64,000 nucleotides of DNA, taken from NCBI RefSeq assembly GCF_041381155.1, contig NC_091135.1, forward strand, positions 69,049,418-69,113,417. Direction: 5' to 3'. Position 1 is the first letter of the stretch, and the number at the start of each line of letters is the position of its first letter. Positions 37,869 to 62,089 of this stretch are shown piece after piece. The notes below the pieces were generated by a model, which was not told where the DNA came from, did not search any database, and worked only from the letters and a program-made list of their open reading frames with translations. The DNA is from Argopecten irradians. Taxonomy: Eukaryota; Mollusca; Bivalvia; Pectinida; Pectinidae. The position numbers and the translations under genes are program-made.

Positions 37869-40800
37869 ATGCTGTTCACTACGTTGTCTATAGTTCTCTC
37901 GCTAATATGTAAGTATAATTCAAATACCTGTAGTTACATTTTGTTAGTTTTAACAGCTTACAGGTTGTGTATGATTTTTTTAGTAGGTCACTATTTCGGA
38001 TATGATGAATAAAAAGATGAATGGGATTTTGAAACTTTGATTTGAAAATGTAATAACTTACAATAATTGTCAAAAGGTTCGCGTGTGAAGGTCTTCTTGA
38101 ATTTTATATAGAATTTCTGTTATCGTTTCCAAATGAAATGTCTTGTATGTTCCCATAATGTCGCAAATTTAAAAAAAATTGAAATCATTAATATTACATA
38201 GTATCGTGATGCTTTAAACTACAATTGTATAAATGTAATATTGTTTATTAAAGATTATGGAACGCATTGATTCTATTATACTCTGTGATGATGTCGCGGA
38301 ACATTTACATCTATCAAAATTATTCAGAATACACTTGCCCTGTATGAGTATTCATGTACGGTTGTTTATCTAGAATTACTCACGCTCTTAAACTATGAAG
38401 GAGTTATTTAAATATAAATATCGTTGTAATAAATAGAGAATATATGTGCTAAAAGCGTTTCTATTGTACAAAAGTAAACTGATGGCTCAACATTCCTCTG
38501 GAAATTAATCGCATAATTACATTTGTTCTTAATCAGTTAATTTTTTCACAGGTTCTTGCAATGCTCCTGGACCTGCCTTTCCGCTATATAATTGGCCTCT
38601 ACATCAACAATCCAGTGTGTACGAGACCATGGAGGGTATTACACAGGACCCGACCCAATCCGGTATTCAATACAAGGAAGCACTCTACAGCAGTATCGAC
38701 ACAGTCTTCTTCGACGGCCTCAACTCGGTTGATGTAAACGTTGGACCTCACAGCTTTGAAGAACGAGACGACTACACCTTTACATTTTACATGAAACCAT
38801 CAAATATTGTCGTACGGGATAGATGTCTAATGCATTACCAAAGTACTGGCGGGACGACGTCTGTCAAGATGGTTCTACACCAGGGAACAGACCTACACAT
38901 CTACCGCACACTAAACACGGGTGCGTCGGAGTCGCTGTACTTTACAGGGACGGTTCAGACAAACCAGTGGCAGCTCTTCGCGGTTGCGGTGGATAATAGC
39001 ATGGGCAAGATAGCAGTCATCGTACTCAGTGTTGTAAAGGAAGAGCTTATAGGAGAGAAGAAACAAGCGTTTCAAACACCCGGCGTCCTCCGAATTGGCG
39101 GCTGTTTTGACAATAGTTTCCCCTCTTATACTGGCTCCGTCACATGCCTTTCCTTATTCGACGACAAGCTGCATGAGTCTGATTTGCATGATGTCGATGA
39201 AGCCTGCGAGGAAAGCACATATGTCTGCTATGCCTCTACCCGTGAGTGTATTTATTAGTCTTATCAAGTATTCATATGAATCTTCAGATCAGTTTAATAT
39301 CGAAATCCAACAGGTGCACCGACTGAGGCAATTACTGGAAACAAACCTAACTTCCCGTGCGATAAAAAAAATCAGGAAAATAAATCCCCGAACAAAAATA
39401 AATAGAAAATACGTATATATCCCGACATCAGACTAAACATACGTCTTAATTCCGATCGAAATCCAACAGGTGCACCGACTGAGGCAATTACTGGAAACAA
39501 ACCTAACTTCCCGTGCGATAAAAAAAATCAGGAAAATAAATCCCCGAACAAAAATAAATAGAAAATACGTATATATCCCGACATCAGACTAAACATACGT
39601 CTTAATTCCGATATCAATCAAAAAAATACATCTAAATATAGACATAAGACAGAACATTCGTCTATATCCCGACATCAGACAGAACATACGTATAGATCCC
39701 GACATCAGACAACATACGTCTTTATCTCGACACCAGACAGAACATACGTCTAGATCCCGTCAACAGACAGAACATACGTAGATCCTGACATCAGGCTGAA
39801 CATACGTATATCCCAACATCAGACAGAACATACGTCTTAATTCCGAAATCAAACAGAACATACATCTATATCTAGACATCAGGCAGACCATACGTCAATT
39901 TCTCGACATTAGACAGAACATACGTCTATATCTCGACATCACACAGTATATATGTTTCGATCCCGATATCAGACAGAACACACGTCTATATCTAGACATC
40001 AGACAAAACATACGTCTAGATCCCGTCTACAGACTGAACATACGTCTGGATCCCGACATCAGGCAGAAATACGTCTATATCTCGACACCAGACAGAAAAT
40101 ACGTCTATATCTCGACACCAGACAGAACAAACGTTAATATTCCGACATCAAACAGAACATACGTCTATATCTTGACACAAGACAGAACATATGTCTTTAT
40201 TTCGACATCAGACAGAAAATACGTCTAGATTTCGACATCAGACAGAACATTCGTCTAGATCCCGACACCAGACAGAACATACGTCTAGATCCCGACACCA
40301 GACAGAACATGCGTCTAAATTTCGTCATCCGACAGAACATGCGTCTAGATCTCGACATCAGACAGAACATTCGTCTAGATCCCGACACCAGACAGAACAT
40401 ACGTCTAGATCCCGACACCAGACAGAACATACGTCTAGATCCCGACACCAGACAGAACCTGCGTCTAGATTTCGGCATTCGACAGAACATGCGTCTAGAT
40501 CTCGACATCAGACCGATAAAAACGGCTTGACATGTACATCTCCACAAAACAATTTGGTTTACAATATAGTAGTATAATGATTGCAACTTGGTTGGTATTT
40601 AATATTTTCTGAACACGTCATGGTATCAAGCACGGCATGAAAACATATACCAGAACCTGTATTGAAATAGATAATACTTAAACACCTCCTCACCTATTTT
40701 GATATTATTCAAATGTAAACAAATTTTTTATTTAAAACGAACAGGGGTAATTACTAAACCCATTAACGGTTTTCTCAACAGCCACGCTGACTACAATTTT

Positions 40801-41494
40801 GAATTCAGCAACATGTCCATCTACTCCGTCTACAGTGACCTCTACTCCGTCTACAGTGACCTCTACTCCGTCTACAGTGACCTCTACTCCGTCTACAGTG
40901 ACCTCTACTCTATCTACAGTGACCTCTACTCCGTCTACTACTCTATCTACAGTGACCTCTACTCCGTCTACAGTGACCTCTACTCTGTCTACAGTGACCT
41001 CTACTCCGTCTACAGTGACCTCTACTCTGTCTACAGTGACCTCTACTCCGTCTACAGTGACCTCTACTCCGTCTACAGAGACCTCTACTCTGTCTACAGT
41101 GACCTCTACTCCGTCTACAGTGACCTCTACTCCGTCTACAGAGACCTCTACTCCGTTTACAGTGACCTCTACTCCGTCTTCAGTGATCTCTACTGAGTCG
41201 CCACTACATCCTCCACTTTATTTCACCGCCGTAATGTACATAGGTAATGACGTCACATTGGTAGAGTACGTCATGACGCAGGACCTCGTGCCCAACCCTG
41301 ACCTTCACCTGTATGTAGCAGCGTACCCGGATGTCAGTCTACTCCAGTGTGGTTCCAGTTGTATGATGGACATGACATGTAAATCGTTCAGTATTGAGGA
41401 ATTGTCGGATGGTCTCGGGACTTGTCGTATCTACAACATAATCATTACAACACACGTGTCCCTCTCACTGTCCGGTTATTATATGAAACAGTGA
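37869..41494 (+). CDS. Gene A: secreted LamG-like / mucin-repeat / PAN-like protein (3 exons, 480 aa)
   Basis: Exons are 37869-37908, 38552-39241 and 40782-41494, with donors gtaagt and gtgagt and acceptors ttttttcacag and tttctcaacag. Both introns are phase 1 and the joined frame is open to TGA at 41492. Residues 1-14 (MLFTTLSIVLSLIC) form a signal peptide. Residues of about 40-240 have the layout of a LamG/concanavalin-like beta sandwich (FTFYMKPSN, then NQWQLFAVAVDN, then GVLRIGGCFD, then GSVTCLSLFDDKL). Residues 256-382 are about 18 Ser/Thr/Pro repeats of the type TSTPSTV, likely O-glycosylated. Residues 390-480 hold a PAN/apple-like motif, CGSSCMMDMTCKSFS with a later Cys in GTCRIYN. The likely role is extracellular binding of glycans or matrix, inferred from domain type. 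It is in tandem with genes B and C on the same strand. The LamG exon is symmetric (1-1), fitting exon shuffling. Confidence 0.8.
39301..39612. repeat. 156-bp direct duplication in gene A intron 2
   Basis: 39301-39456 and 39457-39612 are essentially identical, each starting cgaaatccaacaggtgcacc and ending with a piece of the 30-bp repeat that follows. It lies directly after the splice donor of exon 2, and near-identity implies a recent event. Confidence 0.9.
39613..40512. repeat. 30-bp minisatellite in gene A intron 2
   Basis: About 30 units containing catcagacagaacatacgtc followed by tagatcccga. Units near 40190-40500 are the most regular, and the early ones are diverged and vary in length. 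A period of 30 gives open frames on both strands (for example SRSRHQTEHT), but the array lies within an intron bounded by good splice sites and the frames do not connect to the exons. Confidence 0.92.
40815..41196 (+). repeat. Coding 21-bp minisatellite of gene A
   Basis: About 18 tandem copies of acctctactccgtctacagt plus g, inside exon 3, encoding Ser/Thr/Pro heptads. The length is a multiple of three throughout. Changes are mostly ccg/ctg (Pro/Leu) and gtg/gag (Val/Glu). One partial unit at about 40935-40950 also keeps the frame. This is the mucin-like linker between the LamG and PAN-like parts. Confidence 0.95.
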
Positions 41495-42579
41495 GACACA
41501 TAAACGGAGAGGATGGAAATGTTATGGCAACATGAGCGAATGTAACGTCAACAATAACAACTGCAATCTCATATAAAACGTCTTATAGCATTTCATAAAG
41601 TGTGTTTTAACGTTTTGTTCTATCTGACTAATATTAAAGATTGTAACAACATTATTTATATATTTAATGATCATTTGAGTGTTGTACAAAAACAGATAAA
41701 TGAACAAAAAATATATATTTCAATATGATGTATATTGTAAACATTACATTATTGTACACGTATACATTTTTTTTGTTTCTTTATGAATGTCAGTTATGTT
41801 TCATCGAGTGAGATGAAAACGAGTGAAAAATATCGAAGTTTACACCTCACTAGGTGAAATATTTCTGGTATTCACCAAGCAAAACAATGATGAGTTAACA
41901 ATCAAAATGATATTTTTTCTGTCAATATTGCACTCAGATTGGTCAATAGCGAGTGAAAATATCAAAATTTATAGTTTGAAATATATATTGATATATATCG
42001 CTATTATGTACACCGAAACCCTTATATTTCACTGCGAAAATGTAAAAAAGTAATATAAAATTTAAAACTTTGTAACATTTTAATGCAGCATCTTATTTAA
42101 CTTTCGGTTCTAACGTTTGTTTTTTCCGCAATTGTGTATGCTATATAATTAGTGTAATAGCTACGTACCAGAGAAAACTTGATGTTTGATCCTGTCTCAT
42201 CACTGGTATGGTGCAGCTGAATGACGGACAATGTTGTCTACATTATATCGTACAGTTAACGTGTGATTTGTTTGGTTGATTTTAAATGGTAAAATATGTG
42301 TAAAAGTGGATCCTTCAGAAGAAATACACAACTAATACAGAAGATATATTACACCAAATTAAAATTCCATGATGTTTACAGAGCAAGCACACATACTGCC
42401 ATTGTTTTATCCTGAAAATAAAACTGGTGATTGTAAATAAAGACTGTTTTAGAAAGAAAATGGTTAAACATCCTTCAGTCGTGAAAAAAATACTCCACAA
42501 TTTCTTTGTTATTTGTCCAGATATCTTAACAGAAATTAATAAGTACATTGATTTTAAACCAGCGTATCAAAGTTATATA
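41495..42579. other. Downstream region of gene A
   Basis: A possible poly(A) signal variant attaaa lies at 41632. The block 41790-42050 (gagtgagatgaaaacgagtg onward) looks like a dispersed repeat but has no clear ends. No other gene was seen. Confidence 0.4.
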
Positions 42580-42713
42580 GTCCGCTTAACCTGCCTATAA
42601 TATTAGGCTTTTTAATTTCATTTGATTTGCCTAATAAGTATTAGGCAAAATAATATGTATTAGGCAAAATAAAACAAATAAAAAATCTTATAATACAGGC
42701 AGGTTTAGCAGAC
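42580..42713. mobile_element. Small MITE with TA target duplication
   Basis: The ends gtccgcttaacctgcctata and its inverted counterpart tacaggcaggtttagcagac form arms of roughly 50 bp with a few mismatches. Inside, tgcctaat and attaggca occur repeatedly. TA flanks both sides (42578-42579 and 42714-42715). This suggests a Tc1/mariner-type MITE. Confidence 0.65.
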
Positions 42714-42851
42714 TAGCTTTCATAAAGTAAAATCCTGTCCAATAATTGAAGCCTGATGGTTGATACCAGCAATGAGACAAACATAATGGATTATTTGGTG
42801 CGATAGCTGAACCTCCATACCAGTAATTTTATTGTTCCAGCAGCTCATTAC

Positions 42852-43713
42852 GTTACAGTAAGACAGACATATCGGTATATAATACTTGGTGGTATACAGT
42901 AAGACAGACATATCGGTATATAGTGCTTGGTGGTATACAGTAAGACAGACATATCGGTATATAGTGCTTGGTGGTATACAGTAAGACAGACATATCGGTA
43001 TATAGTACTTGTTGGTATACAGTAAGACAGACATATCGGTATATAGTGCTTGGTGGTATACAGTAAGACAGACATATCGGTATATAGTACTTGTTGGTAT
43101 ACAGTAAGACAGACATATCGGTATATAGTGCTTGGTGGTATACAGTGAGACAGACATATCGGTATATAGTGCTTGGTGGTATACAGTAAGACAGACATAT
43201 CGGTATATAGTACTTGGTGGTATACAGTAAGACAGACATATCGGTATATAGTGCTTGGTGGTATACAGTGAGACAGACATATCGGTATAAAGTGCTTGGT
43301 GGTATACAGTGAGACAGACATATCGGTATATAGTACTTGGTGGTATACAGTAAGACAGACATATCGGTATATAGTGCTTGGTGGTATACAGTGAGACAGA
43401 CATATCGGTATATAGTGCTTGGTGGTATACAGTGAGACAGACATATCGGTATATAGTACTTGGTGGTATACAGTAAGACAGACATATCGGTATATAGTAC
43501 TTGGTGGTATACAGTAAGACAGACATATCGGTATATAGTACTTGGTGGTATACAGTGAGACAGACATATCGGTATATAGTACTTGGTGGTATACAGTAAG
43601 ACAGACATATCGGTATATAGTATTTGGTGGTATACAGTAAGACAGACATATCGGTATATAGTACTTGGTGGTATACAGTAAGACAGCCATATCGGTATAT
43701 AGTACTTGGTGGA
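42852..43713. repeat. 41-bp minisatellite, about 21 units
   Basis: Tandem units containing gtaagacagacatatcggta followed by tatagtgcttggtggtataca. Variation is slight (gtgctt/gtactt, cagtaag/cagtgag). As 41 is not a multiple of three, minus-strand frames pass through all three phases of the unit and give three overlapping long open frames (CIPPSTIYRYVCLTVYH type), which are artefacts. Confidence 0.96.
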
Positions 43714-45164
43714 AAGGGTATAGGAGATATTTAAATTGGTGTAGAGAGCTGTGGTTGTTAGTAAAGAAGATCATGGGATTCAATGATTGGACTTAAGTCT
43801 TTTACTATGTCTACTTGAGTAAATTCACACTTCAGAATGATTTTTTTTCTTTGATTTTTTGTTTATTTTTATGGTGGAGTGCTTTACTCAAAGTTGAGTA
43901 ACTTGTCAACTTTGAGTCAATTATTAGACTTGAGCAAAAAAAATAAAAATACCTGAGAACAGTTTTATGGTACAAGGCGCTGCTCGTGTTTTCTAAAATA
44001 CACAAGGAATCATATTCAGATATATTATGTACATATTATACTGTACGTTATGTTTATTTTACTTATTGTAATAATGAACAGAAAAATAAAACTGAATAAA
44101 AACAGAATATGATAAAGGGTTGCTTACAACATGTAGAGTAAAACGTTTCAAACAAATAGCTAGTCTACTTCCTTACAATGTTTCGAGTATCTTGTAAAGC
44201 TTCTCAGTATGAGGATATGAAGGACATTCCACACATGGTGTACTAAACTAGGTAACATTCCGAAGCTCTTTGCTTACTTTAGTGAGCCCAATTAAGGAAA
44301 TACCTGTCCTCCATACCAAGCATATGAAAGAGTATGGTTCTGTCATATATCATGATTTATGAAAACTGTTTGCTAATGATATCGTATGTAACATGTCAAG
44401 CGCAATACAACTCTTTAAATACTAATCAACGTACTATTAGTTTTAATACATTTTATTATATTAACCTCTCATACATACACATACATTCGAAGTCAGGATT
44501 GGACGACAAGCCTATAGCTTATATTAATTCGTCTCCTAAATGATAAAAAGTCACTTAAGATAATTACTTTAACTTGACAGAAGGTGGTGTATAAAGTAAT
44601 GGTCACGACACGTATAAATAAAATGATTGGATACAAATTCACAGCTTAGTAGCCTCATTCAGAAACACCTATTTCTATAAAGGTGAGATGTCCTAGTTGT
44701 AAGATCTTTGTAATTACCCGGATGTCATAGTAGACGTTTCAGTATCGATCTCCAGCTTTAATGTTATACATATATGTAGTAACAATATGTAAACACAACA
44801 TTATGGTAGTATTATGACTATCTGGTATATTTCCCTGTCAATCTGTACTTATAAATATGAGTAATTGATCAACTTACTTAAACCCAGTACTAGACCGATT
44901 ATCCTATACAAACATCGTGTGTTATCACTATAACCCAGTTGAAACACTCCCCGTTGTACAACTACTCATTAGCCTAATGGTAATCCAATACAAACCATGC
45001 CTTCACGGACCATACTGGATATACTAACGTCTGCTATCTAACCTGTTTGAAGTTCCGCTAACACGACCTTTGCATCGGCTATCAACAATAGACTAATCAA
45101 GGTGAGTATCGTCAACTCTAACTAAAACTGCTCTCCTTCTAGTCCTACTTATGCAGAACCAAAA
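43714..45164. other. Non-coding stretch upstream of gene B
   Basis: AT-rich, with no supported gene. Just upstream of gene B, gtgagt at 45101 and ccttctag at 45135-45142 could be leader splice sites, but the implied intron of about 42 bp is too short to call. Confidence 0.4.
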
Positions 45165-46102
45165 ATGTCGAGATGTCCCCACTTCGGACTGGTCCTGTTC
45201 GGTCTCATCGGCACGGCTTGGAGCGGTAAGATGTTACTGTTTCTGAATTTTCTCAGAACGTTTAATATTTACAAAATAGAAGTTTAAAGAAGGAACATAC
45301 AAAACTATTTATTACGATGTTCTCTAGTTCTCAAGTTCACAAATCGCCATGTATACGTACTAAAATGTTCATTGAAAGTGCTCCATTGAATATGATGATT
45401 TTAAAATACGAGATAGACCTAATGCTAGAGATAGCTCAGATGACATTTTTATTTTTAAACCACTAAACTGTACATTTACTGCCAGTAAATGATTAGGTTA
45501 TTAGAAATAACATCGATACATTTTAACATGACATTAATATATTTCTAGTTAAGGAATGTCTTCAGTACCAGTGGTATCTCTCCGATTAATTCTAACAAAA
45601 ATATTGTATTTGATAAATAATCTCACACTACACATTTACATCAAAGTTGAACAAGAAATTCCTTTATCATCTTTTAATTTTTTTCAGTGAATTTAATGCA
45701 GCAAGATTTAGACGTAGTTCAGCTTCCCGAGGAAAATATTAACATCCAAACTATCACAGTACCGCAAACTACGACCACAGAATCACAAACTACGAGCACC
45801 ACAGAACCGCAAACTAAAACCACCGCGAAATCTCAAATTATATCCACCACACAACCGAAAACTACGACCACCACAGAACCGGAAAAATGACTACAGCGGT
45901 ACTAGAAATAAACTCTATCTCTAAACAGGGGTCTTCTACCGCCGCGATATCAGACTGGAGAAACAAGTGAAAATGTGGACAAAGCAAAATCTAAGGGGGA
46001 TTATACAATTACCAAAGTATATACTACAACCACAGGATATGAACCAGCAGGAACAATATTAACAACAACAACAACAAAAACAACAAAAACAACGGCGGCA
46101 GC

Positions 46103-46149
<47 letters not shown>

Positions 46150-49100
46150 CGGCAACAACAACAACAACAAAAATAACAACAACAACAACAACAACAAATA
46201 CACTAACTGAGGGATTTACGTCTTCAACAACCAAATTACAAATGTCTACAGCAAACGAGGCAGCGACAAATACAACAAATATAGCTGTAACAACAACATT
46301 AGCCGGAGCATCAGGAACTGCAATGACAACATCAGCGTCAACATCTAATTTACTAACAACTTCAACAACTACATCACCAGTAACTACAACAACTACATCA
46401 CCAACAACTACATCACCAACAACTACATCACCAACAACTACATCTCCAACAACTACATCACCAACGACTATATCACCAACAACTACATCACAAACGACTA
46501 CATCACCAACAACTACAACAACTTCGACACCAACAACTACAACAACTATATTACCAACAACTACATCACCAACAACTACATCACCAACAACTACATCACC
46601 AACAACTACATCACCAACAACTACAACAACTACATCACCAACAACTACAACAACTACATCACCAACAACTACATCATCAACAACTACAACAACTACACCA
46701 CCAACAGCTACAACAACTACATCACCAACAATTACAACAACTACATCACCAACAATTACAACAACTACATCACCAACAATTACAACAACTACATCACCAA
46801 CAATTACAACAACTACATCACCAACAATTACAACAACTACATCACCAACAACCTCAACAACTATATTACTAACAACTACATCACCAACAACTACAGCAAC
46901 GTCGTCACCAACAACTACAACAACTACATCACCAACAATTACAACAACTACATCACCAACAATTACAACAACTACATCACCAACAATTACAACAACTACA
47001 TTACCAACAACTACAACATCTACATCACCAACAATTACAACAACTACATCTCCAACAATTACAACAACTACATCACCAACAACTACATCACCAACAACTA
47101 CAACAACTACATCACCAACAAATATATCACCGACAACTACATCACCAATAACTACATCACCAACAATTACATCCTCAACAACTATAACAATAACTACATC
47201 ACCAACAATTACATCATCAACAACTACAACAATAACTACATCACCAACAACTACAACAACTACATCTCCAACAATTACAACAACTACATCACCAACAATT
47301 ACAACAACTACATCACCAACAATTACAACAACTACATCACCAACAATTACAACAACTACATCACCAACAACTACAACAACTACATCACCAACAACTACAA
47401 CAACTACATCACCAACAACTACAACAACTACACCACCAACAGCTACAACGACTACATCATCAACAACTTCAACGACTACATCACCAACAACTACATCACC
47501 AACAACTACATCACCAACAACTACATCACCAACAACTACATCACCAACAATTACAACAACTACATTACCAACAATTACAACAACTACATCACCAACAGTT
47601 ACAACAGCTACATCACCAACAATTACAACAACTACATCACCAACAATTACAACAACTACATCACCAACAATTACAACAACTACATAACCAACAACTACAT
47701 CACCAAGAACTACATCACCAACAATTACAACAACTACATCACCAACAATTACAACAACTACATCACCAACAACTACATCACCAACAACTACATCACCAAC
47801 AATTACAACAACTACATTTCCAACAATTACAATAACTACATCACCAACAGTTACAACAGCTACATCACCAACAATTACAACAACTACATCACCAACAATT
47901 ACAACAACTACATCACCAACAATTACAACAACTACATTACCAACAATTACAACAACTACATCACCAACAATTACAACAACTACATCACCAACAGTTACAA
48001 CAACTACATCACCAACAGTTACAACAACTACATTACCAATACTTACAACAACTACATCACCAACAATTACAACAACTACATCGCCAATAATTACAACAAC
48101 TACATCGCCAATAATTACAACATCTACATCACCAACAATTACAACAACTACATTACCAACAACAACAACAACTACATCGCCAACAATTACAACATCTACA
48201 TCACCAACAATTACAACAACTACATCACCAACAATTACAACAACTACATCACCAACAATTACAACAACTACATCGCCAATAATTACAACAACTACATCGC
48301 CAACAATTACAACATCTACATCACCAACAATTACAACAACTACATTACCAACAATTACAACAACTACATCGCCAACAATTACAACATCTACATCACCAAC
48401 AATTACAACAACTACATCACCAACAATTACAACAACTACATCGCCAACAATTACAACAACTACATTACCAACAATTACAACAACTACATCGCCAACAATT
48501 ACAACATCTACATCACCAACAATTACAACAACTACATCACCAACAACCTCAACAACTATATTACTAACAACTACATCACCAACAACTACAGCAACGTCGT
48601 CACCAACAACTACAACAACTACATCACCAACAATTACAACAACTACATCACCAACAATTAAAACAACTACATCACCAACAATTACAACAACTACATCTCC
48701 AACAATTACAACAACTACATCACCAACAACTACATCAACAATTACATCATCAACAACTACAACAATAACTACATCACCAACAACTACAACAACTACATCT
48801 CCAACAATAACAACAACTACATCACCAACAATTACAACAACTACATCTCCAACAATTACAACAACTACATCACCAACAATTACAACAACTACATCACCAA
48901 CAACTACAACAACTACATCACCAACAACTACAACAACTACATCACCAACAACTTCAACAACTACACCACCAACAGCTACAACGACTACATCATCAACAAC
49001 TTCAACGACTACATCACCAACAACTACATCACCAACAACTACATCACCAACAACTACATCACCAACAATTACAACAACTACATTACCAACAATTACAACA

Positions 49101-50866
49101 ACTACATCACCAACAGTTACAACAGCTACATCACCAACAATTACAACAACTACATCACCAACAATTACAACAACTACATCACCAACAATTACAACAACTA
49201 CATAACCAACAACTACATCACCAAGAACTACATCACCAACAATTACAACAACTACATCACCAACAATTACAACAACTACATCACCAACAACTACATCACC
49301 AACAACTACATCACCAACAATTACAACAACTACATTTCCAACAATTACAATAACTTATCACCAACAGTTACAACAGCTACATCACCAACAATTACAACAA
49401 CTACATCACCAACAATTACAACAACTACATCACCAACAATTACAACAACTACATCACCAACAATTACAACAACTACATCACCAACAATTACAACAACTAC
49501 ATCACCAACAATTACAACAACTACATTACCAACAATTACAACAACTACATCACCAACAATTACAACAACTACATCACCAACAATTACAACAACTACATCA
49601 CCAACAATTACAACAACTACATCACCAACAACTACAACAACTACATCACCAACAATTACAACAACTACATCACCAACAATTACAACAACTACATCACCAA
49701 CAATTACAACAACTACATCACCAACAATTACAACAACTACATCACCAACAATTACAACAACTACATTACCAACAAATTACAACAACTACATCACCAACAA
49801 TTACAACAACTACATCACCAACAATTACAACAACTACATCACCAACAATTACAACAACTACATCACCAACAATTACAACAACTACATCACCAACATTACA
49901 ACACTACATCACCAACAATTACAACAACTACATCACCAACAATTACAACAACTACATCACCAACAATTACAACAACTACATCACCAACAATTACAACAAC
50001 TACATCACCAACAATTACAACAACTACATCACCAACAATTACAACAACTACATTACCAATAATTACAACAACTACATCGCCAACAATTACAACAACTACA
50101 TCACCAACAATTACAACAACTACATTACCAACAATTACAACAACTACATTACCAACAATTACAACAACTACATCACCAACAATTACAACAACTACATCAC
50201 CAACAATTACAACAACTACATCACCAACAATCACCAACAATTACAACAACTACATCACCAACAATTACAACAACTACATCACCAACAATTACAACAACTA
50301 CATAACCAACAACTACATCACCAAGAACTACATCACCAACAACTACAACAACTACATTACCAACAACAACATCACCAAGAACAACACTAACGTCATCACC
50401 AACATCTAGTGTCCCAGTAACTACAACAGTTACGACACAAGCATTAACAACCATAATATCTCCTACTACCATAACCTCCACGGAACAAACGACTTCAACA
50501 CCAATAAGTGCATCCCCAATTACAACATCGACCGTACAGACAAGTACAACAACCATAGACTCCACAGTGGAACCCTTAACATTAACTGTTACTCAACCGA
50601 CATCTGTAGTTCTTTATCCAACCAACGGGACAACTGGTGGGAACTAATTCTTTATCCGACTAGGAGTCAACGTGACAGTGATATCACCTCCCGCAGACCA
50701 ACACCATGCCACTGGTACAGTCCGTTGTGATGAAATATGTGGTACACAGCCCGGCTGTTTATCCTTAACGTACTCTACAACACACAATTGTTCTTTGTTC
50801 CACCAGAGGTTACCGTCAACTTATCACATAGTGCAATATAACACTAACTATTACGAGTTTGTGTAG
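45165..50866 (+). pseudogene. Gene B: secreted Thr-rich mucin / PAN-like locus, disrupted
   Basis: Exon 1 (45165-45225) encodes the signal peptide MSRCPHFGLVLFGLIGTAWS and ends phase 1 at gtaag. Exon 2 begins after tttttttcag at 45688, in phase, and reads VNLMQQDLDVVQLPEENIN, then Thr-rich sequence. The frame meets TGA at 45888; the intervening 85 bp are open only in another frame, so two small frame changes or assembly errors are likely. The Thr array then runs open from before 45975 to TAA at 47685. The same nonsense unit recurs at 49203 and 50303, with several indels in between. After a TAA at 50645 the same frame gives a PAN-like end (VRCDEICGTQPGCLSLTYS, Cys in HNCSLF) to TAG at 50864. 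There is no LamG exon. As assembled it cannot make a full protein; a polymorphic mucin with sequence errors is the main alternative. Confidence 0.65.
46057..50370 (+). repeat. Thr-rich ACA/ACT array of gene B
   Basis: It starts with pure (aca)n at about 46063-46200, then a unique stretch, then thousands of bases of variants of ccaacaattacaacaactac atca, coding SPTITTTT and SPTTTT. Large internal duplications are visible: acctcaacaactatattact at 46851 recurs at 48546, and agctacaacgactacatcat at 47441 recurs at 48974. Small indels at about 49354, 49768, 49890 and 50230 change frame, with a net shift of one base. Antisense open frames (VVVIVGD repeats) are by-products. Confidence 0.95.
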
Positions 50867-50960
50867 GATCTGGATTGCTAGGGTCAGAAATTCATCTGTG
50901 TTTATGTTCGGTATGTTGGATGTTAATGTCAGGTCTTATCAGGACAATATACATGTATGG

Positions 50961-51277
50961 CATCCTCGATACTCTAGGGCTTCCGATCACTTACGATCTC
51001 TACACCCCTGGACTATCTCATAGTAAAACTGGAGGCAACAGAATAGAACAGGTAACTTAGTCATTTGATGTACATCAAAAGAGCCGTATAACGGTACACT
51101 GTGGTTGACTGTGTGACTTTGATGTTAGGCGTCGCTCTCTCTGTAGTCTTCAAAGGAAATCTTTGCTAGCCTGTGATTGGTCAAATGTTTTCAGCTGAGC
51201 TGCCTTCAATTTCACTATGAGATAGTCCAGGGGTGTAGAGATCGTAAGTGATCGGAAGCCCTGGAGTATCGAGGATG
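50961..51277. mobile_element. Palindromic MITE, 317 bp, with 9-bp target duplication
   Basis: Terminal inverted repeats of about 64 bp (50961-51024 and 51214-51277) begin catcctcgatactctagggc and end gccctggagtatcgaggatg. Flanks are catgtatgg on both sides (50952-50960 and 51278-51286), a perfect 9-bp target duplication. The family is shared with 16048-16130 and a solo end at 5334-5352. Long inverted repeats plus a 9-bp duplication point to a Mutator-like group; no transposase is present. It lies just downstream of the gene B stop. Confidence 0.85.
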
Positions 51278-51286
51278 CATGTATGG

Positions 51287-52220
51287 AAGCTGGGTAATAT
51301 GTTTTATGGGTGCTGTTATATTATTTGTTCGTATAATTATTCTATAGGTTGATTGTTAAGAGAACGCAAGTCCTAGAGGCTAAAATTGTGACAAAGCCAT
51401 GCAAAACCTTTTCTATGGGCTACAGATTTACCTGACTCTGTCATTGCATTGGCCGCTAATGACACTTAGATTAATCTTTGTGAACAGGACGAAGATGCTC
51501 TCTAGAATCACTCAGTACTACTGAAATAAATTCTTTTGTGTAATGATAATTTGATTACAACATGCGCATTTTATTAAAATCAATATTTTAATTTTTTATG
51601 TCAATGAACATTTTTCTTAGAAATACAATAATTAAGTTATTTCAATATAAAACTGTTTTTGTAGTATACACAACCAAAAGACGCAGAATAAAATGACAGT
51701 TTTGAGGTTTAATAGTTGACATAATTTATATTATTTTTTTCTGTCCTTTTTGTGAAATGATATCAGATTTGTTCGGAGCGTCTTAACATGACTTACAAAA
51801 TATGTGCTGTTCTTAGTATCAACATTCATTTTGGCGCAATCTTTTGCTAAGTTGCAAAATGAAAAAAATCGTAATAAAAATTTCTGTTATTATAAAATAC
51901 AGAAAAAATAATATATTATCGAAAATTTCACGTGAGCACTCCACTAATAGTACTTGATATTTCACTTACCTGGATTATATAACGTATATGCAGCAAAGGT
52001 ACGATTTTCTTTGGAATGATTTTTAAGAACATTTCATAGAAATCTAAGGTAATTAAAGGGAGAGATCTATACTACTATGACGTAACGTGTGTTTCACGTT
52101 TAGATATGACCGACGATTTCCCGTCGATAAGACACGTTCAGTTCCGATTGTGATTGCACGAGATTTGTTGTATCTCATTCACTATTGTCTCTATTTTTAT
52201 TGTTTCAGTATTGAAAGATT
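51287..52220. other. AT-rich non-coding stretch
   Basis: No gene was seen. An aataaa at about 51525 could serve as a poly(A) signal for gene B but is about 660 bp past the stop. Confidence 0.4.
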
Positions 52221-54213
52221 GTGAATATGCCTACACTTAAATACCTATTACATTTAGTTCTGTTTCATTTATTTCTGTTTGAGTGAATATGCCTACACTT
52301 AAATACCTATTACATTTAGTTCTGTTTGAGTGAATATGCCTACACTTAAATACCTATTACATTTAGTTCTGTTTGAGTGAATATGCCTACACTTAATACC
52401 TATTACATTTAGTTCTGTTTGAGTGAATATGCCTACACTTAAATACCTATTATACATTTAGTTCTGTTTGAGTGAATATGCCTACACTTAAATACCTATT
52501 ACATTTAGTTCTGTTTGAGTGAATGCCTACATATGCCTATACACTTAAATACACTATTACATTTAGTTCTGTTTGAGTGAATATGCCTACACTTAAATAC
52601 CTATTACATTTAGTTCTGTTTGAGTGAATATGCCTACACTTAAATACCTATTACATTTAGTTCTGTTTGAGTGAATATGCCTACACTTAAATACCTATTA
52701 CATTTAGTTCTGTTTGAGTGAATATGCCTACACTTAAATACCTATTACATTTAGTTCTGTTGAGTGAATATGCCTACACTTAAATACCTATTACATTTAG
52801 TTCTGTTTGAGTGAATATGCCTACACTTAAATACCTATTACATTTAATTCTGTTTGAGTGAATATGCCTACACTTAAATACCTATTACATTTAATTCTGT
52901 TTGAGTGAATATGCCTACACTTAAATACCTATTACATTTAATTCTGTTTGAGTGAATATGCCTACACTTAAATACCTATTACATTTAATTCTGTTTGAGT
53001 GAATATGCCTACACTTAAATACCTATTACATTATTCTGTGAGTGAATACATTTAGTTCTGTTGATGTAAATACCTATTACATTTGTGAGTGAATATGCCT
53101 ACACTTAAATACCTATTACATTTAGTTCTGTTTGAGTGAATATGCCTACACTTAAATACCTATTACATTTAGTTCTGTTTGAGTGAATATGCCTACACTT
53201 AATGTGTTTGAGTGAATATGCCTACACTTAAATACCTATTACATTTATTCTGTTGAGTGAATATGCCTACACTTAAATACCTATTACATTTAGTTCTGTT
53301 GAGTGAATATGAGTGAGTGAATATGCCTACACTTAAATACCTATTACATTTAGTTCTGTTTGAGTGAATATGCCTACACTTAAATACCTATTACATTTAG
53401 TTCTGTGTGAGTGAATATGCCTACACTTAAATACCTATTACATTTAGTTCTGTGTGAGTGAATATGCCTACACTTAAATACCTATTACATTTAGTTCTGT
53501 GTGAGTGAATATGCCTACACTTAAATACCTATTACATTTAGTTCTGTGTGAGTGAATATGCCTACACTTAAATACCTATTACATTTAGTTCTGTTTGAGT
53601 GAATATGCCTACACTTAAATACCTATTACATTTAATTCTGTTTGAGTGAATATGCCTACACTTAAATACCTATTACATTTAATTCTGTTTGAGTGAATAT
53701 GCCTACACTTAAATACCTATTACATTTAATTCTGTTTGAGTGAATATGCCTACACTTAAATATACCTATTACATTTAGTTCTGTTTGAGTGAATATGCCT
53801 ACACTTAAATACCTATTACATTTAGTTCTGTTTGAGTGAATATGCCTACACTTAAATACCTATTACATTTAGTTCTGTTTGAGTGAATATGCCTACACTT
53901 AAATACCTATTACATTTAGTTCTGTTTGAGTGAATATGCCTACACTTAAATACCTATTACATTTAGTTCTGTTTGAGTGAATATGCCTACACTTAAATAC
54001 CTATTACATTTAGTTCTGTTTGAGTGAATATGCCTACACTTAAATACCTATTACATTTAATTCTGTTTGAGTGAATATGCCTACACTTAAATACCTATTA
54101 CATTTAGTTCTGTTTGAGTGAATATGCCTACACTTAAATACCTATTACATTTAGTTCTGTTTGAGTGAATATGCCTACACTTAAATACCTATTACATTTA
54201 GTTCTGTTTGAGT
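52221..54213. repeat. 47-bp minisatellite, about 42 units
   Basis: Tandem units containing gtgaatatgcctacacttaa followed by atacctattacatttagttctgtttga. Units are almost identical, with substitution variants (tttaattctg, ctgtgtgag) in blocks and a few scrambled units around 52520 and 53030-53320. It sits just upstream of the gene C promoter. Confidence 0.96.
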
Positions 54214-54423
54214 TATCTTTATATCAATTAACACGACTTATCCATTGTCCAAAGTAAAAAGCTTAAGTACATCCAGTTCACCACCGAATGCATTTGAGGT
54301 TGTATTGTGTCAATGGATTACAATAATTTACCATTTATTCGCTAAATGCCATGTTAGAAAGTAACTTATCAATCCATAAGAATGTCTGCTGTTTTATGTA
54401 AATGATGCTGACCATTTACCGGT

Positions 54424-54431
54424 TATAAAAG
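54424..54431 (+). promoter_or_regulatory. TATA box of gene C
   Basis: tataaaag matches the TATA consensus and is followed by a GC-rich initiator region and cacacaccacacaatagc, a possible start site near 54455. It lies about 280 bp upstream of the start codon, a distance explained if a leader intron (gtaagt at 54556 to ctctttccag at 54674) is spliced out. Confidence 0.5.
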
Positions 54432-54555
54432 GCGGAAGGGGACGGGGAATTCACACACCACACAATAGCTAACATCATACGATGCGTAGGAAATGCAATA
54501 ATTACACTTCAAAAGTAAAGGTCGAACCAACATAGGGTATGGTAATATGCAAATC

Positions 54556-54674
54556 GTAAGTGCTATGTAATGTCCGACTTTCATCGGGGAGATAGGAAAT
54601 CCGAAATCAATATAATGGAGAATATTTTACTGAAAAAATCTAAATGTTTTCTGGGTCAAAAATTCTCTTTCCAG
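54556..54674 (+). other. Possible 5' leader intron of gene C
   Basis: It has a consensus donor gtaagt and a pyrimidine-rich acceptor ttctctttccag, giving 119 bp. Removing it leaves a leader of about 130 bases. A short upstream reading frame (ATG at 54482, 17 codons) lies in the first leader exon. Confidence 0.45.
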
Positions 54675-54705
54675 GTTCGTGTAAGACAGACGTAGTGTCG
54701 ACACG

Positions 54706-56420
54706 ATGGAATTAAGGATGATATTATTTATTGTACTTTTAATTAACTGGAGCGTTGGTGAGTATGTTGTTTTGTTTAAGGATCTATTTAGTTACTTTTT
54801 AAGATTTAAAAGCCATTTAGGTAAAGATATGTACCAGTAATTCTTTCTATGATAAGATAAAAATAAATTGTGTTTAGAAATTGCCTTGGCGGTTTGTATT
54901 ATGATATTTCATGTAAAAGTATATCTTACGTTTGTTTCGTCATTTGCTTGTTATTGTGTTTGGATTAGTGGCCCTCGACACTGATTGCTTGTTATTATGT
55001 TTGGATTAGGGACCCTCGACACTGATTCCTTTGGGGCTCCTATTCTTCTTTGGCCTTTGTCAGACAAGACCTTTCTGAGCGAGGTAAGAGAGGGAACACC
55101 TCAGAATAACAGTCAGTGTGGAATTCAGTTTGATACGGTCCTTCATACCTACCTGCACTGTCAGCCATTACAGTTTGACGGACAGACACGTCCATATGTG
55201 GACATCCACGCCGCACTGTCATTCGGCCAAACAAAGTCCATAGATGATCAGACGTTTTTCACTTTCAGTTTTAATGCCGACCCAGTTACATCAAAGGGGT
55301 TTCTGTTGCATTTTCGTGGTGCAGGAATCGGAAATGAACAAACTGAATTTTCTGTTTGGATTGAACAAAACAACACCCTTTGTATATGTTACCTCACAAA
55401 GGAAGCCATAGATGTCAGTGCATGTCTCCCCGATGTGGTTCGGCCAGGTGCCTGGCAGTTTGTATCGGCCGGCGTCGCTTTAAGCGATGGACACATTGAA
55501 GTGGCAGTCGATGGGCCGTACACCGTAAAGCAGGACAAGCGTCTCGTTTTGACCATTAACATGGATCTTCCTGGAAATATGCGGATCGGATCTGACCACA
55601 CGGACACATTTAGGTTCCATGGTAGGGTCACGTGTCTTTCCCTATATCTGGGTTCTGTTCCGATCAGTCAGATGATAACCATCCTTAACCGCTGTTTCTG
55701 GGGCGTTTCCATATGGAACGTCCTCCCGACAGGTGAGTTCTATTTATGGTAGATTAACTTATATACAGTACATCTACTTATTTTTTTGTGTACAAAAATA
55801 ATTTTATTATGCAAGGATCTTCTCTGATGAGGTTTCAGTCCCGATAAAGTTTCTTTTCAACTTTGATCAAAGAGTTCAAATGATTTTCAAAATACAATTT
55901 TCTCTATTTCTAGCAATTTGCCTTTTTAAAAATGAAGCAATGAATAAGAAATTTCTATTTTGGTCACCATTTAAAAGAGTGTATTTCTGACACTGTGTAG
56001 AGGGGTGAATTTCACATTTCTAGTCTTTGCTTTGATTATTTTAATTTTTTTTATCCTGCAGCATTCATTAACAAATAAATATATATATTATTCGAAATAA
56101 CGGTGTTCGAGATGAGGTATGCTCACATTGTTACAGGACTTCCTGAGACGCCTTCTATCGAAGGCTGCAAGGTAGAAACAAAACGTACCGAGAGAGACGC
56201 ACATTTCGTTAAGGTTGCTACTGACCGCATCCCTGTAGGGAAAGAGACAGAAAACATAACAACAAACACTGTGTATCGCTGTGTGGCCAGCTGTTCCCGC
56301 CTCTCTACTTGCCAATCATGCGTCTTTGTTACGCCCTCAACCTGTTTATTGTATGACGTAAAGTACAACGCGGGAAATTTGAAATCGATGGCTAAACATA
56401 TCTACTACCATCGTCGGTAA
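54706..56420 (+). CDS. Gene C: secreted LamG-like / PAN-like protein (3 exons, 352 aa)
   Basis: Exons are 54706-54757, 55010-55732 and 56137-56420. Donors are gtgagt twice and acceptors ggattag and attgttacag; both introns are phase 1 and the joined frame runs to TAA at 56418. Residues 1-17 (MELRMILFIVLLINWSV) are a signal peptide. Residues of about 50-250 form a LamG/concanavalin-like domain (PLQFDGQTR, FFTFSFNADP, GAWQFVSAGVALSDGHIEVA, GNMRIGSDHT, GRVTCLSLYLG). Residues of about 265-352 are PAN/apple-like, with CVASCSRLSTCQSC and a later STCLLYD. It matches gene A in exon layout and domain order but lacks the mucin linker, so the two are likely tandem paralogues. Extracellular binding of glycans or matrix is inferred. 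A 41-bp duplication overlaps the exon 2 acceptor; only the downstream copy gives an open frame. Confidence 0.82.
54944..55025 (+). repeat. 41-bp tandem duplication over the gene C exon 2 acceptor
   Basis: Two copies (54944-54984 and 54985-55025) both hold tgtttggattag and the first exon codons (ccctcgacactgat). The upstream acceptor would give a frame that stops within 13 codons, and 41 is not a multiple of three, so the downstream site must be used for a full protein. Confidence 0.85.
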
Positions 56421-59291: not shown

Positions 59292-62089
59292 ATGGTACGC
59301 TCTATAGCGTTCACACAACGACGCAGTGAGTACCGATTACATACCTTAATACCTCGCCGTGCATGTAATGCACGTGAACGTATTAGCAATACGGAACTTC
59401 AGCGAGATCGATCGGTGCATTCTTATCACAAGTTTCTTGGGGGGATTTCACTTGAGGATGTGTTGAATGATATTCAAAAGCTGAAAATAACTGACCAAAT
59501 AAACGCAATACAGATAACCGAGAACAGATGTGTAATAACGTGTTTAAACAATGACATAAAACAAACCTTATTGATCAACGCTGTAGAGATAAAACATCAG
59601 CCCGTAAAACGGAGTAGAGATAAAACATCAGCCCGTAAAACGGAGTAGAGATAAAACATCAGCCCGTAAAACGGAGTAGAGATAAAACATCAGCCCGTAA
59701 AATGGTGTAGAGATAAAACATCAGCCCGTAAAACGGAGTAGAGATAAAACATCAGCCCGTAAAACGGTGTAGAGATAAAACATCAGCCCGTAAAACGGTG
59801 TAGAGATAAAACATCAGCCCGTAAAACGGTGTAGAGATAAAACATCAGCCCGTAAAACGGTGTAGAGATAAAACATCAGCCCGTAAAACGGTGTAGAGAT
59901 AAAACATCAGCCCGTAAAACGGTGTAGAGATAAAACATCAGCCCGTAAAACGGAGTAGAGATAAAACATCAGCCCGTAAAACGGAGTAGAGATAAAACAT
60001 CAGCCCGTAAAACGGAGTAGAGATAAAACATCAGCCCGTAAAACGTGTAGAGATAAAACATCAGCCCGTAAAACGGAGTAGAGATAAAACATCAGCCCGT
60101 AAAACGGAGTAGAGAAAAACTCACAAAGATAAAAACATCAGCCGTAAAACGGGTAGAGATAAAACATCAGCCCGTAAAACGGAGTAGAGATAAAACATCA
60201 GCCCGTAAAACGGAGTAGAGATAAAACATCAGCCCTAAAACGGTAGAGATAAAACATCAGCCCGTAAAACGGAGTAGAGATAAAACATCAGCCCGTAAAA
60301 CGGTGGTAGAGATAAACATCAGCCGTAAAACGAGTAGAGATAAAACATCAGCCCGTAAAACGGTAGAATAAAAACGCCCGGTAGAGATAAAACATCAGCC
60401 CGTAAAACGGAGTAGAGATAAAACATCAGCCCGTAAAACGGTGTAGAGATAAAACATCAGCCCGTAAAACGGAGTAGAGATAAAACATCAGCCCGTAAAA
60501 CGGAGTAGAGATAAAACATCAGCCCGTAAAACGGAGTAGAGATAAAACATCAGCCCGTAAAACGGAGTAGAGATAAAACATCAGCCCGTAAAACGGAGTA
60601 GAGATAAAACATCAGCCCGTAAAACGGAGTAGAGATAAAACATCAGCCCGTAAAACGGAGTAGAGATAAAACATCAGCCCGTAAAACGGAGTAGAGATAA
60701 AACATCAGCCCGTAAAACGGTGTAGAGATAAAACATCAGCCCGTAAAACGGTGTAGAGATAAAACATCAGCCCGTAAAACGGTGTAGAGATAAAACATCA
60801 GCCCGTAAAACGGAGTAGAGATAAAACATCAGCCCGTAAAACGGAGTAGAGATAAAACATCAGCCCGTAAAACGGTGTAGAGATAAAACATCAGCCCGTA
60901 AAACGGTGTAGAGATAAAACATCAGCCCGTAAAACGGTGTAGAGATAAAACATCAGCCCGTAAAACGGAGTAGAGATAAAACATCAGCCCGTAAAACGGT
61001 GTAGAGATAAAACATCAGCCCGTAAAACGGAGTAGAGATAAAACATCAGCCCGTAAAACGGAGTAGAGATAAAACATCAGCCCGTAAAACGGAGTAGAGA
61101 TAAAACATCAGCCCGTAAAACGGTGTAGAGATAAAACATCAGCCCGTAAAACGGAGTAGAGATAAAACATCAGCCCGTAAAACGGAGTAGAGATAAAACA
61201 TCAGCCCGTAAAACGGAGTAGAGAAAACGGTAACAAATATTACAATTAAAGATTCTCCGTATGAACGCCTCTCACATGTCGCAATTTGGACAACTAGTCT
61301 CGGGTAGCATTAGGAGAGGTACAATTCGTGGTACAAAAATCGAAAACGGTACAAGATATCTAAACATAATAGGATGCGTTCCTATTCTGCTGTTAAGAAC
61401 GTCGATTGGACGTTTTGATGTTCGCATTTTGGCGAACAACAACAAAACACCGTGTTTCCATTGCAATCCTAATCAAGAACCCCGGTTATGTCATTATTGC
61501 AAACGTCCCGGACACATCCCAATCTGAGTGTAAACAGCAGGAAACAGACCTTTATGGTGAATATGCTGAGGAAATCAGGGAAGGTAAAGAAGCAGAAGCA
61601 GATGTAACTCATTGTGATAACGAGGCGCCTTCAAAAACTACCAATGCCGAGACAAGTTTCCTCATCAATTCCTCATCAAACGCAAAACGCTTGCAATTTA
61701 AGAATAAAAACGTTATTAATTCTTCCATTTCCGGTGATACTTTAACCGATATTGACCAAATTTAAGAAAACTCTGAAAAACATATGTCCGAAAATACTGT
61801 TGTCAAAAACGTCACTATCTGTTTATGGACAAATGACACATCAAAAAATAGAGCCAGTACTGATGAAATAAGTGTCGACCTAACATCTGCAATCAGCAAA
61901 ATCGAAAGCCAATTTCCAGATGTACCAATCGGAGTATGTGGTACCTTACCTCGTAAAGGAAAAGATGAAAAGATAGTTTTCCTCAATGAAGTTGCGGAGA
62001 CAGTTAATAGTTTCGCGAAAAAAATGTGTGACAAAAGATCGATCCTAAACTATATAGATTTACCAGCAGTTTTTACCAAAGAAGGTTAA
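59292..62089 (+). pseudogene. LINE ORF1 (nucleic-acid binding, CCHC, esterase-like), broken
   Basis: The N-terminal part (59292-59600) reads MVRSIAFTQRRSEYRLHTL onward, then FLGGISLEDVLNDIQKL. After the minisatellite it resumes with NITIKDSPYERLSHVAIWTT, then, in a shifted frame, NGTRYLNIIG, RFDVRILANNNKTPCFHC and CHYCKRPGH. The last is a CCHC zinc knuckle whose final Cys lies one frame away. The 61784-62089 part (ISKIESQFPDVPIG, GTLPRKGKDE, NYIDLPAVF) resembles the SGNH/GDSL esterase found in ORF1 of several LINE groups; the usual GTND is WTND here. The role in a live element is RNA binding and RNP assembly. Confidence 0.7.
59584..61224. repeat. 31-bp minisatellite inside LINE ORF1, about 53 units
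   Basis: Tandem units of gtagagataaaacatcagcc followed by cgtaaaacgga or cgtaaaacggt. The first unit is continuous with the ORF1 reading frame upstream (AVEIKHQPVK) and the last flows into the ORF1 sequence downstream (TVTNITIKD). The unit is therefore ORF1 sequence that was amplified in place. A 31-bp period shifts frame with each copy. Units at about 60100-60390 are short or damaged; the rest are near-identical. Confidence 0.95.

Follow-up and report, generated by a model that had tools for sequence, protein, structure and literature searches.

We analyzed a 64,000-nucleotide stretch of the Argopecten irradians genome (the window, C2:69049418-69113417; genome 845.8 Mb in 1508 contigs), in which three loci, here called A, B and C, follow each other on the plus strand. 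A and C are probably members (probability about 0.72) of a dispersed family of secreted proteins built from a signal peptide, a LamG head, an optional Thr/Ser/Pro stalk and a C-terminal PAN domain, with a putative bridging or anchoring role; B would be an interrupted mucin-PAN gene. Among secreted modular animal proteins they look like an ordinary yet well-formed variant, next to which lies one broken gene.

Gene structures at loci A, B and C

Gene A encodes 480 residues and gene C 352 residues, each in three exons with a frame that is open throughout, two GT-AG introns and both junctions in phase 1 (Table 1). An earlier note on this DNA had placed the outer bounds exactly, i.e., the ATG of A lies at 37869 and the stop codon of C ends at 56420. 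Its count of nine exons could not be upheld, as A and C have three each and B consists of a first exon and an interrupted second one. The same note had assigned A and C a symmetric LamG-like exon with phase 1 at either border, which we confirm. It had also described signal-peptide first exons ending in phase 1, and these are clear in A, B and C when judged by a hydrophobicity rule, not by a trained predictor. When the bases of the LamG exons of A and C were shuffled, none of 2000 shuffles of each stayed open.

The gene A LamG exon scored 37.4 bits against Laminin_G_3, above the Pfam cut-off of 27.6, and A also holds the Thr-rich tract ascribed to it, i.e., a stalk of 127 residues with 70% Ser+Thr and 10% Pro, a long in-frame Ser/Thr/Pro tract as in secreted mucins. 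Exon 2 of gene C is called LamG-like because of its matches in its own genome to locus H (expectation value (E) 1.1e-11), locus D (6.7e-10) and gene A (2.0e-9), i.e., by family similarity and not by Pfam. At the intron 1/exon 2 border of gene C, a 41-base tandem duplication (54944-55031) creates two acceptor sites; read by eye, the open frame is entered from the second only.

The C-terminal PAN-like motif expected in all three loci was present. Its core, C-x3-C-x4,5-C-x-[SA]-x8-16-C-x-[LI]-[YF], is found at three places in the six-frame translation of the window, one each in A, B and C; as the pattern was drawn from the members, this shows its specificity and is not independent proof. The PAN domain of gene B passes PAN_1 (2.7e-5, 24.3 bits versus a cut-off of 21.4), and that of gene A resembles the PAN of locus G (E = 0.005 in a search within a small DNA set). 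Compared with solved structures, a profile of the family PAN domains found hepatocyte growth factor N-domain chains as best matches (0.0019); the gene B PAN alone gave no match at E<=1. Checking the predicted proteins against Pfam profiles, as the earlier note had advised, was hence successful in part: the LamG domain of A and the PAN domain of B pass, whereas the PAN domains of A and C stay below cut-off and the LamG domain of C has no match.

At E<=1, Pfam searches found no VWA, Sushi, HYR or chitin-binding module in A or C, and no VWD domain in A, in C or in the C-terminus of gene B. Gel-forming mucins have a VWD-C8-TIL layout. No hydrophobic tail was seen after the PAN domain of A or C when the translations were inspected by eye, without a predictor.

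As assembled, gene B is not the intact giant Thr-rich gene it had been taken for. Its second exon, from 45688, stays open for 66 codons until a cluster of stops at 45888, 45903 and 45909. Within the array there are three more (47685, 49203 and 50303), and the frame shifts in its final kilobase. A TAA at 50645 stands immediately upstream of the 72-residue piece that bears the PAN domain, the Pfam match starting at residue 11 of this piece. Given the extent of the array (Table 1), the first three stops and the one at 50645 are outside it. We looked for hidden introns using preset donor weights, by which the five donors of A, B exon 1 and C scored 1.0 to 8.0. No donor above -3.0 was present between the start of the second exon and the first stop of gene B, and none above -2.6 was present upstream of either these first stops or the stop of locus D, so that this rescue was rejected. 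One donor precedes the stop at 50645 (at 50637, score 1.7). Phase-compatible acceptors would give introns of 27 to 84 bases, and longer candidates would cut into the PAN match; intron rescue of this stop is therefore unlikely. Gene B could be decaying or truncated, or its interruptions may be artefacts of assembly. Just downstream, at 50960-51278, lies an inverted repeat with arms of 78 bases, 95% complementary and 163 bases apart, which resembles a miniature inverted-repeat transposable element by appearance only.

Within its own genome, the gene B PAN had no close relative: the next match was at E = 1.0 with three candidates scored, and neither A nor C was recovered. Its kinship to A and C therefore rests on position and layout.

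Table 1. Features of loci A, B and C (positions in the window) and of related loci (positions on their contigs)
Feature	Position	Strand	Basis
Gene A exon 1, signal-peptide-like (MLFTTLSIVLSLI), phase 1 end	37869..37908	+	translation, hydrophobicity scan
Gene A exon 2, LamG-like, symmetric 1-1	38552..39241	+	Pfam Laminin_G_3 3.5e-9; best paralogue D 1.1e-16
Gene A exon 3, mucin tract, PAN-like domain and stop	40782..41494	+	translation, tandem-repeat scan
Gene A Thr/Ser/Pro repeat, 21-base unit, in frame	40820..41194	+	tandem-repeat scan, composition
Gene A C-terminal PAN-like domain, core 41348-41434	41204..41491	+	PAN_2 0.01 (below cut-off); core pattern
Gene B exon 1, signal-peptide-like, phase 1 end	45165..45225	+	translation, hydrophobicity scan
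Gene B second exon as first laid out, Thr-rich array and PAN, broken by in-frame stops and frame changes	45688..50866	+	
Gene B Thr-rich tandem array	46061..50386	+	tandem-repeat scan
Gene B PAN piece, open, preceded by in-frame TAA at 50645	50648..50863	+	PAN_1 2.7e-5, above cut-off
Gene C exon 1, signal-peptide-like, phase 1 end	54706..54757	+	translation, hydrophobicity scan
Gene C exon 2, divergent LamG-like, phase 1-1	55010..55732	+	locus H match 1.1e-11; no Pfam match
Gene C exon 3, PAN-like, no mucin tract	56137..56420	+	PAN_4 0.0027, PAN_1 0.0038 (both below cut-off); core pattern
Locus D	C2:30418376	+	LamG search
Locus E	C2:30442928-30443600	-	LamG search
Locus F	C14:8306216	+	LamG search
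Locus G	C14:8340455	+	LamG search
Locus H	C14:15417034	+	LamG search
Locus I, distant	C2:36394615-36395310	-	LamG search

Related loci in the genome

We searched the genome with single LamG exons of A, C, D, G, H and I. These searches score the best candidates only, and the locus count is hence a lower bound. Six additional loci with LamG and PAN were found (D to I), on C2 and C14. With the query itself included, the exon of A matched at least seven places (E<=0.001) and that of C at least six (E<=0.01); at E<=0.1 there were at least eight matches with G, at least seven with H and at least nine rows with D, two of which are pieces of E.

Each of D to I has one LamG exon and, downstream on the same strand, one PAN exon. 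Read by eye, the LamG exon borders are in phase 1-1 and the PAN exon starts in phase 1 at all eight loci (A and C-I), and Leu-Pro appears within the first few residues of the PAN exon in seven of them, A being the exception. The domain order, i.e., LamG, optional mucin tract, PAN, is identical in the eight loci retrieved with the LamG exons of A, C, D, G and H. That the family has more than one locus, as the earlier note had it, is thus borne out by eight LamG-PAN loci, B being included for its position and layout only. In E, F, H and I, a signal-like first exon with a phase 1 end is likely.

PAN_1 is very abundant in this genome: of 454 candidates, 150 were scored, and 148 of these matched at E<=0.01. 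Even if all 454 are counted, one expects fewer than 0.1 chance PAN neighbours within 10 kb for a set of eight loci; A and C had defined the family, so that six of the eight are independent for this pairing argument. Laminin_G_3 gave 20 matches among 40 scored (E<=0.001), eight of these 20 places lying wholly within the DNA that we examined.

In the alignments, six of seven LamG exons match Laminin_G_3 and six of eight PAN domains match PAN_1 (E<=0.1). Besides A, the LamG exons of D (31.2 bits) and I (53.7 bits) exceed the Laminin_G_3 cut-off, and H is below it (21.0 bits). Locus I, whose LamG exon was not in the alignment, matches Laminin_G_3 at 3.3e-14 and also resembles the Pentaxin family (3.1e-5; 24.2 bits, just under the cut-off of 25). 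PAN_1 is passed by D (24.5 bits) as well as B, the PAN domains of A, C, F, H and I being below Pfam cut-offs. The core pattern occurs in eight of the nine loci; in E, a stop codon (TGA) replaces the third Cys.

The members have diverged strongly. LamG identity is 26-30% between A and C and 20-34% among the pairs listed, except for D and E (60%). The LamG tree (eight rows) has a single supported join, D with E (100/99), and the PAN tree (nine rows) has none. A and C are hence not supported as recent tandem duplicates. Nor are the three window loci demonstrated to be the tandem family that had been proposed, as the A-C identity is low, only D and E are joined and the gene B PAN finds neither A nor C. 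For the D-E pair, the nonsynonymous (dN) and synonymous (dS) substitution rates over 196 LamG codons are 0.29 and 1.25, respectively, from which we conclude that constraint has acted on the LamG domain, at least formerly, as expected under purifying selection.

The stalk varies among loci. C, G and I have none and F has a short one; in A it comprises 127 residues and in D about 200, that of H is Gln/Thr-rich, and those of E and B are long. Interruptions accompany it at several loci. D has a single TAA between its stalk and the PAN domain (C2:30423486), so that B and D have an in-frame TAA shortly upstream of the PAN domain in common. E has frame changes in the stalk, a frame change at a C run inside the LamG exon and the TGA mentioned above, and H has frame changes within its repeat.

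The differences between A, B and C had been read as modular shuffling. With order and phases the same in all eight LamG-bearing loci, exon shuffling is unnecessary as a cause: growth and loss of the stalk, together with loss or lack of LamG in B, explain the differences. The constant order and phases agree with an old common LamG-mucin-PAN plan in which stalks were gained, lost and extended, rather than with fresh shuffling. One might go further and suppose that the mucin stalk is a fast-changing minisatellite, whose slippage, together with stops between stalk and PAN domain, turns the PAN tail on in some copies, and perhaps in some individuals, and off in others; we regard this as very improbable.

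A second LamG subfamily was observed at C11:24996547-24999393, where a LamG exon is followed by a 482-codon open Thr-rich frame; its LamG relatives are at C11:3617211, C12:41965183 and C11:13135301.

Proposed role and alternative explanations

From the domain content we suggest that the family proteins would be exported via the predicted signal peptide and that the Thr/Ser/Pro stalk, where present, would be O-glycosylated. The concanavalin-A-like LamG head may bind a glycan or protein partner, and the PAN tail, by analogy with the hepatocyte growth factor N domain, might bind a second, different one. The stalk would separate head and tail and hydrate the molecule, which could then act as a two-ended adaptor or anchor in mucus, in extracellular matrix or in body fluid, i.e., in humoral recognition. 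Of the earlier description as secreted, mucus- or matrix-associated lectin-like proteins, probable secretion and the LamG, mucin and PAN parts remain; residence of the family products in mucus or matrix is a guess.

A number of observations weigh against this reading. The gene A PAN is the weakest of the three in the window (PAN_2 0.23 with the whole protein and 0.01 with the PAN alone, below cut-off), that of gene C is below the Pfam cut-offs as well (PAN_4 0.0027, PAN_1 0.0038), and the gene C LamG exon has no Pfam match at E<=0.1. The hydrophobicity scan gave no convincing signal exon for D or G, and the joining of LamG and PAN exons was read from splice sites. Structure models were poor, with a mean predicted local distance difference test score of 38.0 for the gene C LamG domain, modeled mostly as strands, and of 44.5 for the PAN model, and fold searches with both found no match at E<=0.001. 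For the low-confidence LamG model, for which a beta jelly roll would be expected, galectins (E 0.009-0.061) made up most of the 50 matches listed, the remainder being a small number of other lectins and unrelated folds; the search with the PAN model gave a meaningless result. Moreover, the pairing of LamG with PAN is not universal, being found in eight of the 12 LamG regions examined (A, C and D-I). No PAN core was present downstream of LamG at C11:24.996 Mb and C11:13.135 Mb (4.8 and 5.3 kb examined, respectively) or at C16:9.834 Mb within the 3.7 kb examined, and at C5:14.20 Mb a PAN-like core follows several LamG exons in a different layout. Finally, four of the nine loci are interrupted (B, D, E and H), and part of the family may therefore be dead or mis-assembled.

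Gene B could be a PAN-mucin gene without kinship to A and C that came to lie between them by chance, the supposed tandem family then being two relatives and a stranger. The lack of a genome relative for its PAN better than E = 1.0, the abundance of PAN_1 and the mucin-like frame that follows another LamG exon on C11 all speak for this. However, A and B have strand, place, a phase-1 signal-like exon and the terminal mucin-PAN layout in common, and the PAN domains of LamG-bearing members are barely alike too: compared with A, identities are 14-21% for C-H and 11% for B. We hence regard an unrelated B as a serious possibility that falls somewhat short of even odds. It is considerably less probable, in our view, that the stops and frame changes of B are sequencing or assembly errors and that the animal has an intact giant mucin. 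Interruptions do occur in or near repeat tracts at four of nine loci, and such arrays are hard to assemble, yet the stops at 45888, 45903, 45909 and 50645 are outside the array.

Two further explanations concern the site of action. As a recognition branch of the adaptor reading, the proteins might be soluble immune lectins whose LamG head binds microbial glycans while the stalk acts as spacer and the PAN tail recruits partners. The strong divergence among copies and their spread over several chromosomal sites are consistent with this, as is the near-threshold Pentaxin similarity of locus I, and snail fibrinogen-related immune lectins include one PAN/Apple member (PMC7588048). Divergence alone is no proof of immune function, though, and with a dN/dS of about 0.23 the D-E pair is not diversifying across the exon, so that we consider an immune role rather unlikely. 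A role as shell or periostracal matrix proteins, with mucin-like tracts organising mineral or chitin, appears improbable. A bivalve shell proteome holds LamG and mucin-like proteins, among them one Perna viridis protein with a chitin-binding domain and LamG (PMC6641155); against this stand the missing chitin-binding and VWA matches in A and C, and the main text of the proteome paper nowhere has PAN as a whole word.

The adaptor or anchor family that we favour uses known parts. Likeness to Laminin_G_3, the concanavalin A-like lectin domain (PF13385), is given by the exons of A, D and I, whereas C and H fall outside the Pfam cut-off. With PAN/Apple domains (PF00024 and kin, e.g., the hepatocyte growth factor N domain), the family shares core Cys spacing and profile similarity, B and D passing PAN_1; A, C, F, H and I differ in remaining below cut-off, and A and B lack, within the aligned stretch, the first Cys seen in C-H. 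Among composite proteins, cnidarian Polydom has a core of pentraxin, PAN/Apple and FA58C; it is a secreted protein in which a pentraxin domain, a type that the locus I LamG also resembles, lies near PAN. In contrast, it also contains VWA, EGF, Sushi, HYR and CUB modules, with no mucin stalk mentioned in the accessible part of the source (PMC12549020), whereas A and C have no folded domains beyond LamG and PAN. Snail FREP1 and some limpet FReDs are likewise molluscan lectin-like proteins with a PAN module, but their head is fibrinogen-like plus immunoglobulin superfamily (IgSF) instead of LamG, and a mucin stalk is not mentioned in the part of PMC7588048 at hand. Mucin-like shell proteins (mucoperlin; the Perna mucin-2-like protein with ChtBD2 and LamG) combine a mucin-like protein with LamG, but have chitin-binding instead of PAN and a different order, according to the excerpted text of PMC6641155.

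In titles and partial abstracts of the open-licence literature on these domains, we found no description of the order LamG, mucin, PAN, nor do laminin G, PAN domain and mucin occur together in any of the open-licence papers searched. Within this literature, the LamG-optional mucin-PAN combination and its constancy appear to be undescribed. This order, with its constant phase-1 plan at eight loci of one genome, can be searched for in relatives and tested by expression. It would add a candidate mucus, matrix or recognition family and illustrates the variation, growth and breakage of mucin tracts within one family; it settles no open question by itself.

Other features of the window

A scan of the window against Rfam gave nothing at gathering scores. 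A run of 5000 N starts directly after the window end (C2:69113418-69118417) and makes the downstream neighbourhood unreadable there. Large minisatellites are present at 18411-20713, 28393-33748, 42854-43712 and 52266-54213, with units of 21, 34, 41 and 47 bases, respectively, and the one at 18411-20713 has several open frames on either strand. Between 59286 and 63816, frames resemble a non-long-terminal-repeat (non-LTR) retrotransposon, with an endonuclease-like match (PF14529, 0.0068) and a GDSL-lipase match (PF13472, 0.00038), both below cut-off. This retrotransposon-like region contains a 31-base tandem array at 59583-61224.

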